Source: Candidatus Saccharimonadota bacterium (GTDB lineage: Bacteria; Patescibacteriota; Saccharimonadia; Saccharimonadales; Saccharimonadaceae). From it: a DNA stretch of 64,000 nucleotides. Each line of letters begins with the position of its first letter. Position 1 is the stretch's first letter. This document shows, piece after piece, positions 58,199 to 64,000 of the stretch. The notes below the pieces were generated by a model that ran no database searches, was not told the DNA's origin, and saw nothing but the letters and a program-made list of their open reading frames with translations. The DNA is taken from the NCBI GenBank assembly GCA_017404795.1, contig JAFRBR010000004.1, positions 34,120 through 98,119 of the forward strand, read 5' to 3'. The position numbers were made by a program, and so were the translations under genes.

Positions 58199-58866
58199 AA
58201 CCTTATTATATCATACACCCTATCAATTGTATCTTGTTCAACTTTAATTTTTTTAATCGCCGCAAGACTCATTTTTGACATCAATCTCATTAATTTAATT
58301 TCATTAGTCCCATATCGTCCACTACCATCCAAATAAAAATTCCGCTCATAGCCATCCCAATCATAACTTTTCCCTTCTGCCAGCTTCTCCCCCGCCGCAT
58401 CTCGATACAAATTCACTTCCTCACCACCAATCCGCAATAAGTTCAACCAAAACCAACTTTCTATTAATGCAACATTTGTTTCATTATTTAATTCCTCCAA
58501 ACATTGCCGTGTCAATTCAAAATATTCCGGCCCCTCCGCATGCTCCGCCGCCATACTGACTTTTTTCAAAATCAACCCCGCTAGCTCCATTCGTTCATAG
58601 CTTTGCAAAATTCCACTATAGTGCCTGACCATCCGTGCGCTCGTTACTACTCCCAACTTCCCTCGCCCTTGGTGAATTTGTATTTCAGATAGACAAAACA
58701 TTTCTATTCCTCCCGCCAATTTGGATCGCGCTCGCCGCACTCCTTTGGCAATTACTGCTATCTTGCCCACCGGCGTAATCAGGTTCAAAATCCTGTCCGC
58801 CTCTCCATAATTAGTCCGCCTCAGTACCACGGCTAAAGTCTTTAAATCAGCAGTATTCCTCGGCAT
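58186..58866 (-). CDS. recO: DNA repair protein RecO
   Basis: 226 residues. N-terminal OB fold (LAVVLRRTNYGEADRILNLI, TPVGKIAVIAKGVRRARS) and a helical C-terminal domain. The zinc Cys cluster of long RecO is missing, in line with the short form. It anneals ssDNA and loads RecA with RecR. It overlaps the response regulator gene upstream and glyS downstream. Confidence 0.88.
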   Translation of the reverse strand: MPRNTADLKTLAVVLRRTNYGEADRILNLITPVGKIAVIAKGVRRARSKLAGGIEMFCLSEIQIHQGRGKLGVVTSARMVRHYSGILQSYERMELAGLILKKVSMAAEHAEGPEYFELTRQCLEELNNETNVALIESWFWLNLLRIGGEEVNLYRDAAGEKLAEGKSYDWDGYERNFYLDGSGRYGTNEIKLMRLMSKMSLAAIKKIKVEQDTIDRVYDIIRLWEN

Positions 58867-59197
58867 AACTTCTAATTTCCTCTGGCGTCATTGTCGCCTT
58901 GTCTAGCACTTCCACTACACCATATACCCTCAAATCCCACCCCGCAAAATCCAGCGACGACACCACCACTACTGGCACTTTGGCCGTGTCCACATACGAC
59001 GCCAACTCGTTCAAAAACGTAAACCCATCCGGTCCAGTCAACAAAATATCCAAAAAAATCAAGTTTGGTAGTTTCGCTCCATCTAGTGCCTGCACTGCCT
59101 CGATCGCATTATCAAACACTCGCACCGCATCCACTCCCTCACACGCTCGCGCTATACACCCCGCCATTATTTCGTCATCATCAATAACATAGATCAT
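58847..59197 (-). CDS. Single-domain response regulator (CheY-like)
   Basis: 116 residues from the ATG at 59197, which overlaps the kinase stop in an ATGA. Receiver domain only: acidic pocket DDDE near 7-10, phospho-acceptor Asp in LIFLDILLTG, Thr/Ser in VVVSSLD and Lys in VLDKATMTPEE. There is no output domain. It is presumably the partner of the kinase just upstream. Confidence 0.88.
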   Translation of the reverse strand: MIYVIDDDEIMAGCIARACEGVDAVRVFDNAIEAVQALDGAKLPNLIFLDILLTGPDGFTFLNELASYVDTAKVPVVVVSSLDFAGWDLRVYGVVEVLDKATMTPEEIRSYAEEYC

Positions 59198-59877
59198 GTC
59201 CACAAACTCGCTTGCTTAGATGTTAGCAGTTCTACGTAAAAACTTGTCCCGTCCCGATGTCGCACAGCTCCCACTTTGGCGCCCATCGCTCGTGCAAAAC
59301 GCGAAGCAATATAGAGCCCTAGTCCCGAAGACCCTGGTCGCATTGCGATTGAAGTTGGCCGCTTTACCCAGCCTTGCTTCATCTCGCGCCACACGTCCAT
59401 CGGCAATGCTGGCCCGTAATCTCGCACCACCACCTTGACTCGGTCATGAAAATCTCGCACGAGTAGCTCCGCTCGCGCTCCCTCACCCGAATAATGCATC
59501 GCATTGAGCAGAAAATTATACACTACACTTTTTAATAAATCCCGATTTGCCGTCACCAGCCGCGCCCGATTACTATATTTAATGCACAAATCTCGCTGAT
59601 TATAATTAAACAAACAAGTCAACTCCGCCGTTACTTCGTCGCACACCGCCCTTATCGCTACTGGCTCCATGACAAATAATCCATCCTCTAATCGACGAAT
59701 CCGAGTCAAATCATTTACTTGGCGGATGGCCCGCTCACTTACACTCACCATCTCACTCCGCATCTGCTCACCACCAACATCCATCCCTGGCAAACCCAAT
59801 GCCAACTGCCGAAGCACCGCCAGCGGCGCCTTTAGCTCGTGCGCCGCCACCAAAATCCCATCTACCTCACTCTCCAT
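59194..59877 (-). CDS. Soluble histidine kinase without a sensor domain
   Basis: 227 residues from the ATG at 59877, 7 nt behind TGTTATAAT. It begins directly with the dimerisation/H box: AAHELKAPLAVLRQLALG, with His near residue 14. The ATPase domain follows with N box (KSVVYNFLLNAMHYSGEG), a weak G1 (VRDYGPALP) and G2 (PGSSGLGLYIASRFARAM). No membrane helix or PAS/GAF domain exists. The signal is unknown; it may sense through a separate partner. The operon continues with response regulator, recO and glyS. Confidence 0.88.
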   Translation of the reverse strand: MESEVDGILVAAHELKAPLAVLRQLALGLPGMDVGGEQMRSEMVSVSERAIRQVNDLTRIRRLEDGLFVMEPVAIRAVCDEVTAELTCLFNYNQRDLCIKYSNRARLVTANRDLLKSVVYNFLLNAMHYSGEGARAELLVRDFHDRVKVVVRDYGPALPMDVWREMKQGWVKRPTSIAMRPGSSGLGLYIASRFARAMGAKVGAVRHRDGTSFYVELLTSKQASLWT

Positions 59878-59898
59878 ACCCCCCATTATAACACACAA

Positions 59899-60823: not shown

Positions 60824-60832
60824 TGATATAAT
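60824..60832 (+). promoter_or_regulatory. Promoter for the DGR template RNA
   Basis: Extended -10 TGATATAAT (hexamer 60827-60832) on the plus strand, with transcription expected from about 60839. No good -35 is seen. Nothing codes on this strand before the TR. Confidence 0.6.
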
Positions 60833-61052
60833 GGTACAGCAATAATTGTTGCTATTTCGAATGATATTTATAAATATCATCGTCTAGCCAAACAGGTTTG
60901 CCGCACGGGAATCAAGAATCCACTTTTATCAAATCATCTAAACATAGAAGTATCTGCTTTTTTAAATAATACTTATTATTTTTAAGAAGCCCCTTTTAAG
61001 AGTTACGGCTTTTAATAGGTCAGAGAGAATCTTTAATAACGGAGTCCCATTT

Positions 61053-61270
61053 CTTCGTCTACTCCGGCAACTTCAATACGGCGTCGGCGAACAATCGGGG
61101 TAGCAACGGGAACTATTGGTCGTCTTCGGCGAACAATAGCAACAATGCCTACAACCTGAATTTCAACTCCACGAACGTCAACCCAGGGACCAACAACAAT
61201 AATAAGTACAACGGTAGGACAGTCCGTTGCTTATTATCTAGTTAGTTCTTTTACTTATTCGTCCGTGTAG
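61053..61270 (+). repeat. DGR template repeat (TR)
   Basis: 218 nt, the invariant copy. It is rich in AAC/AAT codons (about 20) in the reading frame used by the VR. It aligns without gaps to the reverse complement of 63553-63770. I count 19 differences, each at a TR adenine. The last ~49 nt (from GTCCGTTGC on) are identical in both and include the stop codon and an IMH-like segment. Confidence 0.95.
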
Positions 61271-61293
61271 CATCCCGTTCGGTAATTATAATT

Positions 61294-61320
61294 CTGTGCC
61301 TCATCAAGGCACAGTTTTTT
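61294..61320 (+). terminator. Terminator of the template RNA
   Basis: Stem CTGTGCC / GGCACAG, loop TCATCAA, then TTTTTT. The T-run overlaps the RT stop codon on the other strand. Confidence 0.85.
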
Positions 61321-62551
61321 ATCTTCTTTCAAACAATTTATCATTTCTATACTCCCACCCCGCATTTTCAAATGCCTTTTTTACACTAATAAAACCATTT
61401 ATATGCAATGTATGTCCAAGATATGACGCCACTGTACTCAGTTCTCTTTTCCCCATCGCTACCTCACGAAACGCTTGATTCATATTGCGAATTAGCCTCT
61501 TCCCAGGAACCGTATAATGCATATATACTACCACCCCCAAAAACGGCACCCCCTGATCCACCCTAATCAGATGTCTCTTCTTGGGGTGCAACGTCAATTC
61601 AATTGATCTCAAAAAGTTTTCAATCACTTTCACATCTCGTTTCAATTGTTCTAATTGTGATTTATCCACCACAATATAAAAATCATCCACATACCGACCA
61701 TAATGTTTATATCCCAATGACATAGTCACAAATCTATCCAATTGGTCCAAATAAATATTAGACAAAAGTTGTGATGTTAGATTCCCAATCACGATTCCTC
61801 TCCCCTTGGGCTGGCAGAACAAACTCTTCGAGGTCGGGATTAATTTCCAATTAGATATTTTCCCTTTTCTCGTCGCACCCTTCACCGGATCATCAAAAAT
61901 AATCTGTCTCCACAAAAATTTCAATAAATAATACAAAGGCGTATCTTCTCTACCCTCAAATTGCATATTCAAACCTCTTATGGCCGTTCTATACAATTTT
62001 TCTCTTGGCAAACTCATAAAATATCCCTGAATATCAAACTTATACACATACGGCACTCTTCCATATTTCTGTTCCACCGAATGAATATGATGCTCTAATC
62101 TTCGTATACCAAATAAAACCCCCTTACCCTTTCGACAAGAATACGAATCATAAATAAAATGTCGGTCCCACCATTCATACACCGCCATAAATAATAAATG
62201 ATGTACTACTCGATCCCGAAAAGGCGCTGCAAAAATCTCCCGTATCACTGGTGAAAAAATAATATGGGCTGCGCTACGTGACGGCCGATAAGTACGCTCT
62301 TTAAGATTTTTTACCATAATTCTTATATTATCAAAAACATTTATTTCAAAACTATGCTCATCATAGGTCTTACGTTTTCCACCTTTTCTCGCCTCTAAAT
62401 ACGCTATATATAAAATCAACGCCATCTGATTTTCTTGTGTTCGTAACCACTCTCTGTCAGTTTCATCCATTTCTTGTAAAATACTTCTTAATTTTACCGG
62501 TGGCAATATCAAGAGCAAGGAATTCCATGAGACATCTATTTTATTTTTCAT
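61319..62551 (-). CDS. DGR reverse transcriptase
   Basis: 410 residues. Group-II-like RT of the DGR clade: fingers region RTYRPSRSAAHIIFSPVIRE with DRVVHHLL, then YKFDIQGYFMSLPR (motif A Asp), GIVIGNLTSQLLSNIYLDQL (DGR-type motif, where group II introns have a Q-G pattern), catalytic YVDDFYIVV near residue 285, and the thumb HPKKRHLIRVDQGVPFLGVV. It overlaps the accessory gene by 11 bp and so is coupled to it. It makes mutagenised cDNA from the TR RNA for transfer to the VR. Confidence 0.95.
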   Translation of the reverse strand: MKNKIDVSWNSLLLILPPVKLRSILQEMDETDREWLRTQENQMALILYIAYLEARKGGKRKTYDEHSFEINVFDNIRIMVKNLKERTYRPSRSAAHIIFSPVIREIFAAPFRDRVVHHLLFMAVYEWWDRHFIYDSYSCRKGKGVLFGIRRLEHHIHSVEQKYGRVPYVYKFDIQGYFMSLPREKLYRTAIRGLNMQFEGREDTPLYYLLKFLWRQIIFDDPVKGATRKGKISNWKLIPTSKSLFCQPKGRGIVIGNLTSQLLSNIYLDQLDRFVTMSLGYKHYGRYVDDFYIVVDKSQLEQLKRDVKVIENFLRSIELTLHPKKRHLIRVDQGVPFLGVVVYMHYTVPGKRLIRNMNQAFREVAMGKRELSTVASYLGHTLHINGFISVKKAFENAGWEYRNDKLFERR

Positions 62552-63374
62552 TAAAGTGCCTTTCTATGCCAACTTTCATATCAGCAAGCAGTTTTCCAAT
62601 TCTTATTTGACCCGTCACATCCAAACAATCATTCTCTGACAACAATCTCAAAACCGCCTCCAGATCATCTATCGCCATCAACATTTCGTTTTTCGCCTCT
62701 TCTTGTTTCATCCGTCCGTTAGCGAAACGATGATAGGCTTTCATTAAACGAATCATTCCACAATTCAATTCTGGCGCAAAATCTTCTCGAAATCCGTCTT
62801 TTAACCTCTTAGCCTTCACCGGTATCGTTTTTGATAATTCTAGTATAATACCATATAAATCTGGAAATACTTTTTTAGGGCGAAACAAGTCGTTCAAAGC
62901 CTCCAGATCTTCTTTTTCTCGCTTTTTCAAAGCCTTGATTTCGTCAAAAGAAAATTTATAATCCAATTCAAAAATCATTACGCCAGACTCTTCCTTCATT
63001 TCATAGCCCAACCCCTCCATCGTCTTTAAAATATTCTCTTTCCAATGCAAAAATATCACGCCATTTCTAGAACGACATCTCATATCTGTATCTGGATGAA
63101 CTGTCGGTGGTTTTCTTCTTTTTAGCCTTGGAGCTACATAATATTTATAAAAATACACTGAATTTCCAGCTATTTTAAACCACTCATCTTTATCCCCTTT
63201 AGACGCCACAGAAGGGAAAACAATTATCCGTGAATTATTCATCTTTTCCAAAGTCAAAGCAACTTGTTTACAATCGTAGTATTCCTTATAAATTTTCTCA
63301 GTATTCTTTTCGTCTAGTTTCGTCTCTACAGGTAGATCGGATGAATTATTCAATTTTTTTGAATCCTTTACCAT
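62541..63374 (-). CDS. DGR accessory protein: N-terminal domain fused to Avd-like four-helix bundle
   Basis: 277 residues. The C-terminal ~105 residues (FPDLYGIILELSKTIPVKAK ... IRIGKLLADMKVGIERHFNE) have the helix pattern of Avd, the basic four-helix-bundle partner of DGR RTs. The N-terminal ~130 residues (CKQVALTLEKMNNSRIIVFP, RSRNGVIFLHWKENILKTME) are a separate, probably alpha/beta domain. It may be the MutS-N-like domain described in some CPR DGRs; that is tentative. AGAAGGGAG precedes the ATG and TTGCGT-17-TATAAT (63440-63412) drives it. RT follows. Confidence 0.75.
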   Translation of the reverse strand: MVKDSKKLNNSSDLPVETKLDEKNTEKIYKEYYDCKQVALTLEKMNNSRIIVFPSVASKGDKDEWFKIAGNSVYFYKYYVAPRLKRRKPPTVHPDTDMRCRSRNGVIFLHWKENILKTMEGLGYEMKEESGVMIFELDYKFSFDEIKALKKREKEDLEALNDLFRPKKVFPDLYGIILELSKTIPVKAKRLKDGFREDFAPELNCGMIRLMKAYHRFANGRMKQEEAKNEMLMAIDDLEAVLRLLSENDCLDVTGQIRIGKLLADMKVGIERHFNEK

Positions 63375-63425
63375 TATTCTCCCTTCTCCATTTTTCTACC
63401 TCTTATCATATATTATACTCCTCTT

Positions 63426-63552
63426 AGAGCGTGGACGCAAGCGACCACGCTCTGGATCCTTGCCCCTTAAATCGGGGCAAGGATGGACTTGCGGTCGCTA
63501 TGGCGCCCGCAAATCTAAGGGGGTCCTTGCGGACCCCCTGATTCCCGGGAAT
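63426..63552. repeat. Five consecutive inverted repeats downstream of the VR
   Basis: Stems: AGAGCGTGG/CCACGCTCT (63426-63453); ATCCTTGCCCC/GGGGCAAGGAT (63456-63484); TTGCGGtCGC/GCGcCCGCAA (63489-63512); GGGGGTCC-TTGC-GGACCCCC (63519-63538, 8-bp stem and 4-nt loop, GCAA on the VR sense strand); ATTCCCGGGAAT (63541-63552). In other DGRs a hairpin/cruciform with an 8-bp stem and 4-nt loop just past the IMH aids cDNA transfer; the fourth stem fits. The others may act as terminators or be extra copies. Confidence 0.85.
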
Positions 63553-63770
63553 CTACACGGACGAATAAGTAAAAGAACTAACTAGATAATAAGCAACGGA
63601 CTGACCTACCGTAGTACTTATTATTGCTGTTGGACCCTGGGTAGACGTTCGTGGAGAGGAAACTCAGGTAGTAGGCACTGCTGCTATAGTTCGCCGAAGA
63701 CGACCAATAGTACCCGCTGCTACCCCGATTGCGCGCCGACGCCGTAAGGAAGTAGCCGGAGTAGACGAAG
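63553..63770 (-). repeat. DGR variable repeat (VR)
   Basis: 218 nt, the gapless counterpart of the TR. Its 5' part codes for the last ~65 residues of the target protein; the last ~25 nt lie past the stop. All 19 differences from the TR occur at TR adenines (to T, G or C). Altered codons are mainly AAC/AAT to Tyr, Ser, Leu or Arg codons. Confidence 0.95.
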
Positions 63771-64000
63771 TTGTTAGGAAAGGCTCTGATTAGTTTGTCT
63801 ACAGGGCCGGCTTCAGTGGAAACATCGTAGTATGGGCTGGAGCTTCTATCGTAATTAGATGGTAAAGTATTGTTATTAAGATTTACTACGATTAGGTTCC
63901 AAAATTCATTATTGTTGTCCGAAGTAATTCTAGTCTTATCACCGCCAGTAGGGATATGCCAGCCAGTGGGACAGAGAGAGGTACCAGCAGATTCGGAGGC
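63578..64000 (-). CDS. DGR target protein, FISUMP/C-type-lectin-like C-terminal domain (partial)
   Basis: The last 140 codons are in the window; the N-terminus lies beyond 64000. The start of the domain SLCPTGWHIPTGGDKTR and the end GRSVRCLLSS are typical of Fibrobacter succinogenes major paralogous (FISUMP) domains, which share the C-type-lectin-like fold used as DGR scaffold. The middle reads YYWSSSANYSSSAYYLSF, with changed sites in this stretch. The VR places diversified residues on the presumed ligand-binding face. Likely a surface adhesin; ligand and anchor are unknown. Confidence 0.85.
   Translation of the reverse strand, partial: ASESAGTSLCPTGWHIPTGGDKTRITSDNNNEFWNLIVVNLNNNTLPSNYDRSSSPYYDVSTEAGPVDKLIRAFPNNFVYSGYFLTASARNRGSSGYYWSSSANYSSSAYYLSFLSTNVYPGSNSNNKYYGRSVRCLLSS

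Follow-up and report, generated by a model that had tools for sequence, protein, structure and literature searches.

A diversity-generating retroelement with an opposite-strand template repeat, one of four in a small Candidatus Saccharimonadota genome

In the diversity-generating retroelement (DGR) of the Bordetella phage BPP-1 (mtd, avd, template repeat and brt), the target site is described as a GC-rich hairpin of 7-10 bp with a GRNA loop, located 4-34 bp past the variable repeat (PMC3240598), and loss of this hairpin, studied in E. coli, is reported to leave homing severely but not fully impaired (PMC12875486). DGRs have already been described in Patescibacteria (PMC8144416, PMC10221324), Fib_succ_major is a known DGR target domain (PMC4159848, PMC8934634), and a survey of DGR cassettes reports 122 patterns, with inversion among the commoner ones (PMC6642488). 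Here we analyze a stretch of 64,000 nt from a Candidatus Saccharimonadota bacterium (assembly GCA_017404795.1, contig JAFRBR010000004.1; G000:C23:34120-98119 in our numbering), referred to throughout as the window, which contains a template repeat (TR), a variable repeat (VR), and genes for a reverse transcriptase (RT), an accessory protein and a target protein. It is near certain that this element belongs to the DGRs, a known kind. It is, very probably, one of four DGRs in this genome in which a TR encoded opposite to the RT is predicted to give rise to a separate short RNA, which would be copied into the 3′ ends of target genes with adenine-directed errors.

The TR/VR pair and its counterparts in the genome

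The TR (61053..61270, + strand) and the VR (63553..63770, − strand) are each 218 nt in length and, as a preliminary description made from the letters of this DNA had claimed, align without gaps. Our alignment of the TR with the reverse complement of the VR contains 19 mismatches, and all 19 are at TR adenines as that description had also reported, with adenines making up 62 of the 218 TR positions (hypergeometric P = 4.3e-12); mismatches at other bases, which it had named as contrary evidence, are absent from the window VR. The final mismatch is at TR position 167, which leaves an identical 3′ stretch, present as described, of 51 nt rather than the approximately 49 nt originally given. Homology to the VR continues to 61277, i.e., the inverted arms reach 225 nt (61053-61277 and 63546-63770), with mismatches close to the extended end. 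The VR spans the stop codon of the target gene, and 54 of the 58 TR adenines upstream of this stop codon are in codon positions 1 and 2; many of them are part of AAY codons, where changes at these two positions cannot create stops.

The adjacent RT (410 aa; 61319..62551, − strand) matches RVT_1 and PHROG 1423 (E 7e-71), contains the motifs IGNLTSQ and YVDD, and has as its best sequence match in the PDB chain A of 8ub7 (8ub7_A, E 2.3e-18), an entry titled as a DGR ribonucleoprotein, all of which supports its earlier assignment to the DGR type. The same two motifs are present in all four RTs of this genome, and [ILV]GxxxSQ together with YVDD in 82 of 82 RTs in our tree of own and related sequences. 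The RT gene overlaps the accessory gene (61319-62551 and 62541-63374, both on the − strand), and both reading frames are intact. The VR forms the end of the target frame, of which the C-terminal 140 aa are encoded in the window (63578..64000, − strand), since the window ends where contig C23 ends and the 5′ part of the gene is lost. This part scores 34.1 bits for Fib_succ_major, barely above the cut-off of 33.9, and on this match the lectin-like target proposed previously is a probable one. With an RT, an accessory protein with a predicted Avd fold, an adenine-only TR/VR pair and a Fib_succ_major target all present, the DGR is complete, in agreement with the first account of it.

The genome itself (G000; 691,946 bases in 27 contigs, 94% complete, listed contamination 0.01) contains four DGRs and eight accepted VRs within its 0.69 Mb. 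A search for further VRs, suggested as a check in the preliminary description, identified three more for the window TR (TR1), giving one VR each on contigs C23 (the window), C5, C9 and C24. Mismatches to TR1 are at adenines in 19 of 19, 17 of 17, 21 of 26 and 18 of 22 cases, respectively (the last over 196 nt), and the four VRs differ mutually mostly at TR adenines. Three further RTs, on C19, C12 and C4, are each accompanied by an accessory gene, a TR and a VR. Adenines account for 16 of 16 TR/VR mismatches in the C12 cassette (TR2), for 20 of 23 in the C19 cassette (TR3), where the other three are near the alignment ends, and for 33 of 34 in the C4 cassette (TR4), where the remaining one is near an alignment end; a second VR of TR4, on C11, has 31 of 36 mismatches at adenines and two small indels. 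The adenine-only pair, the four VRs of TR1, the three additional inverted cassettes and the RT with its DGR motif can all be read directly from the sequence. A match on C3 (G000:C3:1-398; L042:1-372) was rejected as a second VR of TR2, with 22 of 57 differences at adenines and with gaps; the upstream part of this fragment resembles the target of the second DGR, and its VR-like end may derive from a TR missing from the assembly.

The four RTs fall in four different subclades of the RT tree, and are therefore not recent copies of one another. A match to the window RT is present in 97 of 174 genomes of the genus. Four near-full-length RT matches are listed also in G068 and G072, and four matches in each of G095, G176, G013 and G168, these including fragments or with not all of them shown. 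Among named organisms, the closest are Candidatus Saccharibacteria, many of them titled as coming from ruminant guts, and Candidatus Nanosyncoccus alces; the window bacterium is itself a likely gut saccharibacterium.

Examination of the region downstream of the window VR identified a GC-rich hairpin (63519..63538, − strand; 8-bp stem; the 4-nt loop reads GCAA when taken in VR orientation), separated by 14 nt from the 218-nt VR, or by 7 nt if the entire homologous stretch is counted, and a 14-nt palindrome at the VR 3′ end (63540..63553, − strand) that is also found at C5 and C9. The hairpin has a GCAA loop at C23 and a GTAA loop at C5, only one arm is present at C9, and C24 has no hairpin and is also without the last 22 nt of the VR; inspection by eye found no comparably clear hairpin past the other three VRs of this genome. 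Non-adenine changes amount to 0 of 36 in the VRs with a hairpin (C23 and C5) and 9 of 48 in those without (C9 and C24; Fisher P 0.0088), a contrast that was noticed before testing and concerns four VRs. By analogy, this contrast fits the homing role of such hairpins in BPP-1.

These counts also bear on the most probable alternative, i.e., that the DGR worked formerly and is now idle, with the TR/VR pattern a relic and the genes persisting for now. The non-adenine changes gathered in two of the four TR1 VRs are in its favor, as are the below-average signs of activity that Roux et al. report for DGR clade 2 of Patescibacteria, to which the window RT may belong (PMC8144416). We nevertheless consider an idle element unlikely, since the RT and accessory frames are open, the TR1 VRs differ from one another as described above, and all 36 changes in the C23 and C5 VRs are at adenines, which implies that until a recent time homing was faster than ordinary mutation. 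These 36 changes also lend indirect support to the apparent activity claimed in the preliminary description.

The inverted TR and its predicted RNA

The window TR sits on the strand opposite to the RT, the accessory gene and the target, and in all four cassettes of this genome the TR lies beyond the RT stop codon and is encoded on the other strand. For comparison, 80 loci (of 96 confirmed), 78 of them with a full RT frame, were scanned for repeat pairs with adenine-biased mismatches, using a TR finder that retains only pairs with >=75% adenine mismatches, a condition that applies to all adenine totals given for relatives. The RT tree, limited to RTs of the DGR type, has 82 rows, and 26 of these are labelled “none” (TR/VR pair lacking, or adenine fraction <0.9). 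A single 52-row clade, with a support of 94/94, just below the tool's star, contains every one of the 41 inverted-TR rows (37 from relatives and four own), and all 15 rows with a same-strand TR are outside it: 12 from Bacteroidota, and three in a neighboring group, namely L112 (Saccharibacteria), L118 (Patescibacteria) and L123. The clade also holds 11 “none” rows, among them L080 (0.75) and L110 (0.80), which are inverted, and L108, which is same-strand. In the 37 inverted relatives, adenines account for 617 of 624 TR/VR mismatches, the pairs having been chosen at >=90%, and the TR segment starts at −19 to +198 nt relative to the RT end in 36 relatives and at 1,573 nt in one. In 30 of the 37 relatives, as in the window, only the TR is flipped and the VR is on the RT strand; the other 7 have the layout of DiGReF group 4, with the RT on one strand and the TR, VR and target on the other. 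A second set of 20 loci comprised 14 repeats of the first set and six new ones, of which five are inverted and one, L206, is not.

In L112, L118 and L123 the TR is downstream of the RT but on the RT strand, and a local flip of the TR is therefore the simplest account of the inverted arrangement. Two exceptional layouts, inside or near the clade, would need changes beyond such a flip: in L108 the TR is on the RT strand, with 11 of 13 mismatches at adenines, and in L206 (from G181), whose RT is the closest relative of the window RT at 64% identity, the TR is on the RT strand upstream of the accessory gene, with the target convergent with the RT. In L206 (L206:3-4000) the accessory-RT pair appears flipped relative to the TR and the target, and the TR retains its leader. 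An origin of this layout by TR-VR recombination was rejected, because the GC-rich hairpin remains with the VR and the other hairpin with the TR; this is not what a simple crossover within the common 3′ part would leave, whereas a flip of the accessory-RT pair between them would account for it. One record in the set, titled Clostridia bacterium (L091), has an RT nearly identical to that of the saccharibacterial L094, and its contig is probably mis-binned.

Upstream of the window TR, we identified by motif a promoter-like −10 site for the predicted TR RNA (60827..60832, + strand), with the sequence TATAAT of the −10 promoter consensus. TATAAT is present 120-420 nt upstream of the TR in 24 of 40 inverted loci, compared to 5.7 expected from base shuffles, and lies 226, 199, 294 and 188 nt from the TR in the four own loci. 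The predicted 5′ leader of the TR RNA (60839..61052, + strand) is taken to start approximately 12 nt past this site; it folds better than 60 dinucleotide shuffles (z −4.06), with z values of −2.59 to +0.41 for 11 other leaders. The leaders show little common sequence apart from a hairpin followed by UAAG, located in the window at 60952..60981 (+ strand; model match of 27 bits, E 0.047, as a training row). Alignment of this hairpin from 14 loci demonstrated compensatory changes in 13 of 13 pairs, 78.6% pairing cells compared to 57.6% when shuffled, and a covariation score of 0.665, which none of 500 shuffles attained and which dropped to 0.13-0.21 when the alignment was slid; the 14 training leaders had been hand-anchored on the hairpin and UAAG, which favors the model and for which the slid controls compensate in part only. 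Applied to at most 72 loci, the hairpin model gave 19 matches at E <=1, comprising all 14 training rows plus five additional matches. Four of these five (L078, L102, L083 and L090) are on the same strand as the TR and beyond the end of the RT, and upstream of the TR in the three with a known TR. When leaders were searched singly, those of C19 (E 0.014) and L206 (E 0.0046) matched the model. Rfam at gathering scores identified three tRNAs over the window and nothing at the TR leader. Past the TR, an 8-bp hairpin with a T run (61294..61320, + strand), resembling a terminator, begins 16 nt beyond the end of homology and is located between the convergent TR and RT.

With a promoter-like site and a covarying leader hairpin, the TR probably constitutes an RNA gene of its own. 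Since only a short 3′ flank is predicted for the window transcript, we infer, in contrast to the 3′ spacer of BPP-1, that the structure recruiting the RT complex lies 5′ of the TR in this system.

A number of results weigh against the reading of the element as a working DGR with a self-contained TR RNA. TATAAT is absent from 16 of the 40 loci and its frequency was controlled by base shuffle only, and strict terminators are found <=110 nt from the TR in 3 of 41 loci. Thirteen pairs changed on both sides were also reached by 8 of 500 shuffles of the hairpin alignment; the matches in L078, L102, L083 and L090 are weak (E 0.065-0.53), the fifth additional match (L075:1238) is misplaced, and the C12 and C4 leaders, searched singly, gave no match to the model. 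The layouts of L108 and L206 depart from the common one, and two of the four TR1 VRs (C9 and C24) contain non-adenine changes. The GCAA loop of the downstream hairpin is outside the GRNA consensus (PMC3240598), and a protein database search for strain-level VR variants found none, returning only the genome's own copies and relatives at <=72% identity.

Several of these points would be expected of a canonical DGR whose TR is read only from RT-strand or read-through transcripts, and in which the flipped TR, the promoter-like site and the leader hairpin are functionless; for example, the patchy occurrence of TATAAT and of strict terminators, and the two own leaders without a model match, are in line with it. 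Against this, the adenine asymmetry shows that the template RNA has the sense of the TR + strand, and no transcript of the RT strand can provide this; in addition, the leader hairpin covaries and is retained in L206 despite the other orientation of that TR to the RT. We rate this alternative as slightly less probable even than an idle element.

In the reading that we prefer, of a DGR with an opposite-strand TR expressed as its own RNA, the promoter 226 nt upstream and the terminator just past the TR would delimit an RNA with a conserved 5′ leader hairpin, which the RT-accessory complex would recognize in trans. This complex would make complementary DNA with errors opposite TR adenines, and the complementary DNA would then replace VR sequence, beginning in the unchanged 3′ part and aided by the DNA hairpin downstream of the VR. 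The system would in this way generate a varied set of lectin-type domains, carried by likely surface proteins and plausibly serving to bind partner cells.

The full-length targets seem to be hidden by the assembly, which appears to break in repeated N-terminal parts of the target genes. Contigs C23, C5, C9 and C24 end approximately 200-230 nt upstream of their VRs, and terminal stretches are common to C23 and C24 and to C5 and C9, which is the mark of repeated target genes. We also observed that C23, C24, C5, C9, C12, C3, C4 and C11 terminate within target genes shortly upstream of VRs. An assembly artefact or strain mixture, in which the assembler created or misplaced the repeats, could draw on these contig ends as unresolved repeats but is highly improbable, given that the TR, RT, accessory gene and VR are all on one 98-kb contig, that the layout recurs in separately assembled relatives, that mismatches confined to adenines are no assembly signature, and that contamination is listed at 0.01.

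The accessory protein and neighboring genes

The accessory gene (62541..63374, − strand) encodes a protein of 277 aa, which had been described as Avd-like. This description holds for the C-terminal part (residues 167-277), for which an Avd fold is predicted by a model of the monomer, and not for the N-terminal part, which is a separate alpha/beta domain in the same model. Bordetella-type Avd forms a pentameric barrel that binds the RT and the TR RNA. A structure search with the accessory model returned a match list filled by the C-terminal bundle; the protein has no match in Pfam, NCBIfam or PHROGs, and a PDB sequence search with the profile of its family gave 32 weak matches (E 0.034-0.89), none of them to Avd. 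This family, A1, consists of 51 chosen frames, with the short frames of L072 and L137 left out. HTH_3 is matched in 7 of the 51 proteins, reflecting either an additional DNA-binding-like N-terminus or a start codon set too far upstream.

Comparison of the N-terminal domain with MutS_I by hhalign gave a weak, co-linear match (score 19.7 over 68 columns, probability 6%), with a score that beats 148 of 150 column shuffles and 36 of 36 RT windows, and PF01624 was matched weakly in 1 of 46 family members (E 0.072). The MutS sequences used for comparison were those of other Patescibacteria. The domain bears at most a tentative resemblance to MutS domain I. None of 40 relatives, the own genome among them, has MutS domain I above cut-off, compared to 11 of 14 control genomes; across the phylum, 60 of 286 genomes contain it above cut-off.

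If these elements are combined, the TR would be an independent, trans-acting RNA gene whose recruiting structure has moved from a 3′ spacer to a 5′ leader, and would be read by an Avd fused to a mismatch-binding module resembling MutS domain I, in gut Saccharibacteria with no MutS detected and with four mutators acting on at least eight dispersed lectin-type genes. We put this combination forward tentatively, and consider it doubtful as a whole.

Adjacent response-regulator-like and histidine-kinase-like frames (58847-59898, − strand), named from their translations by eye, are located near the DGR. ATPase-like genes that are similar by eye adjoin VRs or DGR cassettes in three relatives (L008:3901-5139, L093:6131-7441 and L206:4464-5669).

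Comparison with described systems

Within the open-licence literature searched, we found no clade described with a flipped TR and a structured leader, no Avd fused to the N-terminal domain seen here, and no saccharibacterial genome with four DGRs. For a genome of 0.69 Mb, the upkeep of four hypermutation cassettes together with eight variable genes of the lectin type is a heavy investment in diversity. The predicted rewriting of the ends of likely surface proteins would let the bacterium keep changing its binding partners and, if the targets face partner cells, they are a testable candidate for varied host binding by episymbiotic Saccharibacteria. The flipped, self-contained TR unit would be a natural separation of template RNA and RT in which the RNA parts that a DGR requires can be dissected, and the VRs of one TR with and without a downstream hairpin provide a natural test of the role of this hairpin outside phage.

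The DGR of BPP-1 shares with the window element the SQ motif of the RT, the Avd fold, the adenine-specific differences, the unchanged 3′ part of the VR and, as described in PMC3240598, a GC-rich hairpin past the VR. It differs in several respects. The window TR is flipped and downstream of the RT, the window accessory protein has an extra N-terminal domain, and one TR serves four VRs. In BPP-1, the TR RNA is described as flanked 5′ by avd and 3′ by a structured spacer that recruits bRT-Avd (PMC12875486), whereas the predicted window RNA has a non-coding 5′ leader and little 3′ flank. The DGR accessory protein MSL, which contains MutS domain I (PF01624), is similar in that an extra domain accompanies Avd; the weak, co-linear match of the window N-terminal domain to MutS_I makes a relation between the two at most possible.

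The “inverted” DGRs of DiGReF group 4 (Shewanella, Vibrio and Photobacterium) resemble the window element in having the TR and RT on different strands, and thus a TR RNA separate from the RT mRNA; they are described from three elements in which the RT faces the TR, VR and target from the other strand (PMC3521204), a layout different from that of the window, where the VR and target are on the RT strand. Clade 2 of Roux et al., the DGRs of Patescibacteria, is alike in consisting of cellular DGRs that are common in the phylum; its targets are reported to be mostly without recognizable domains, whereas the window target has Fib_succ_major (PMC8144416).

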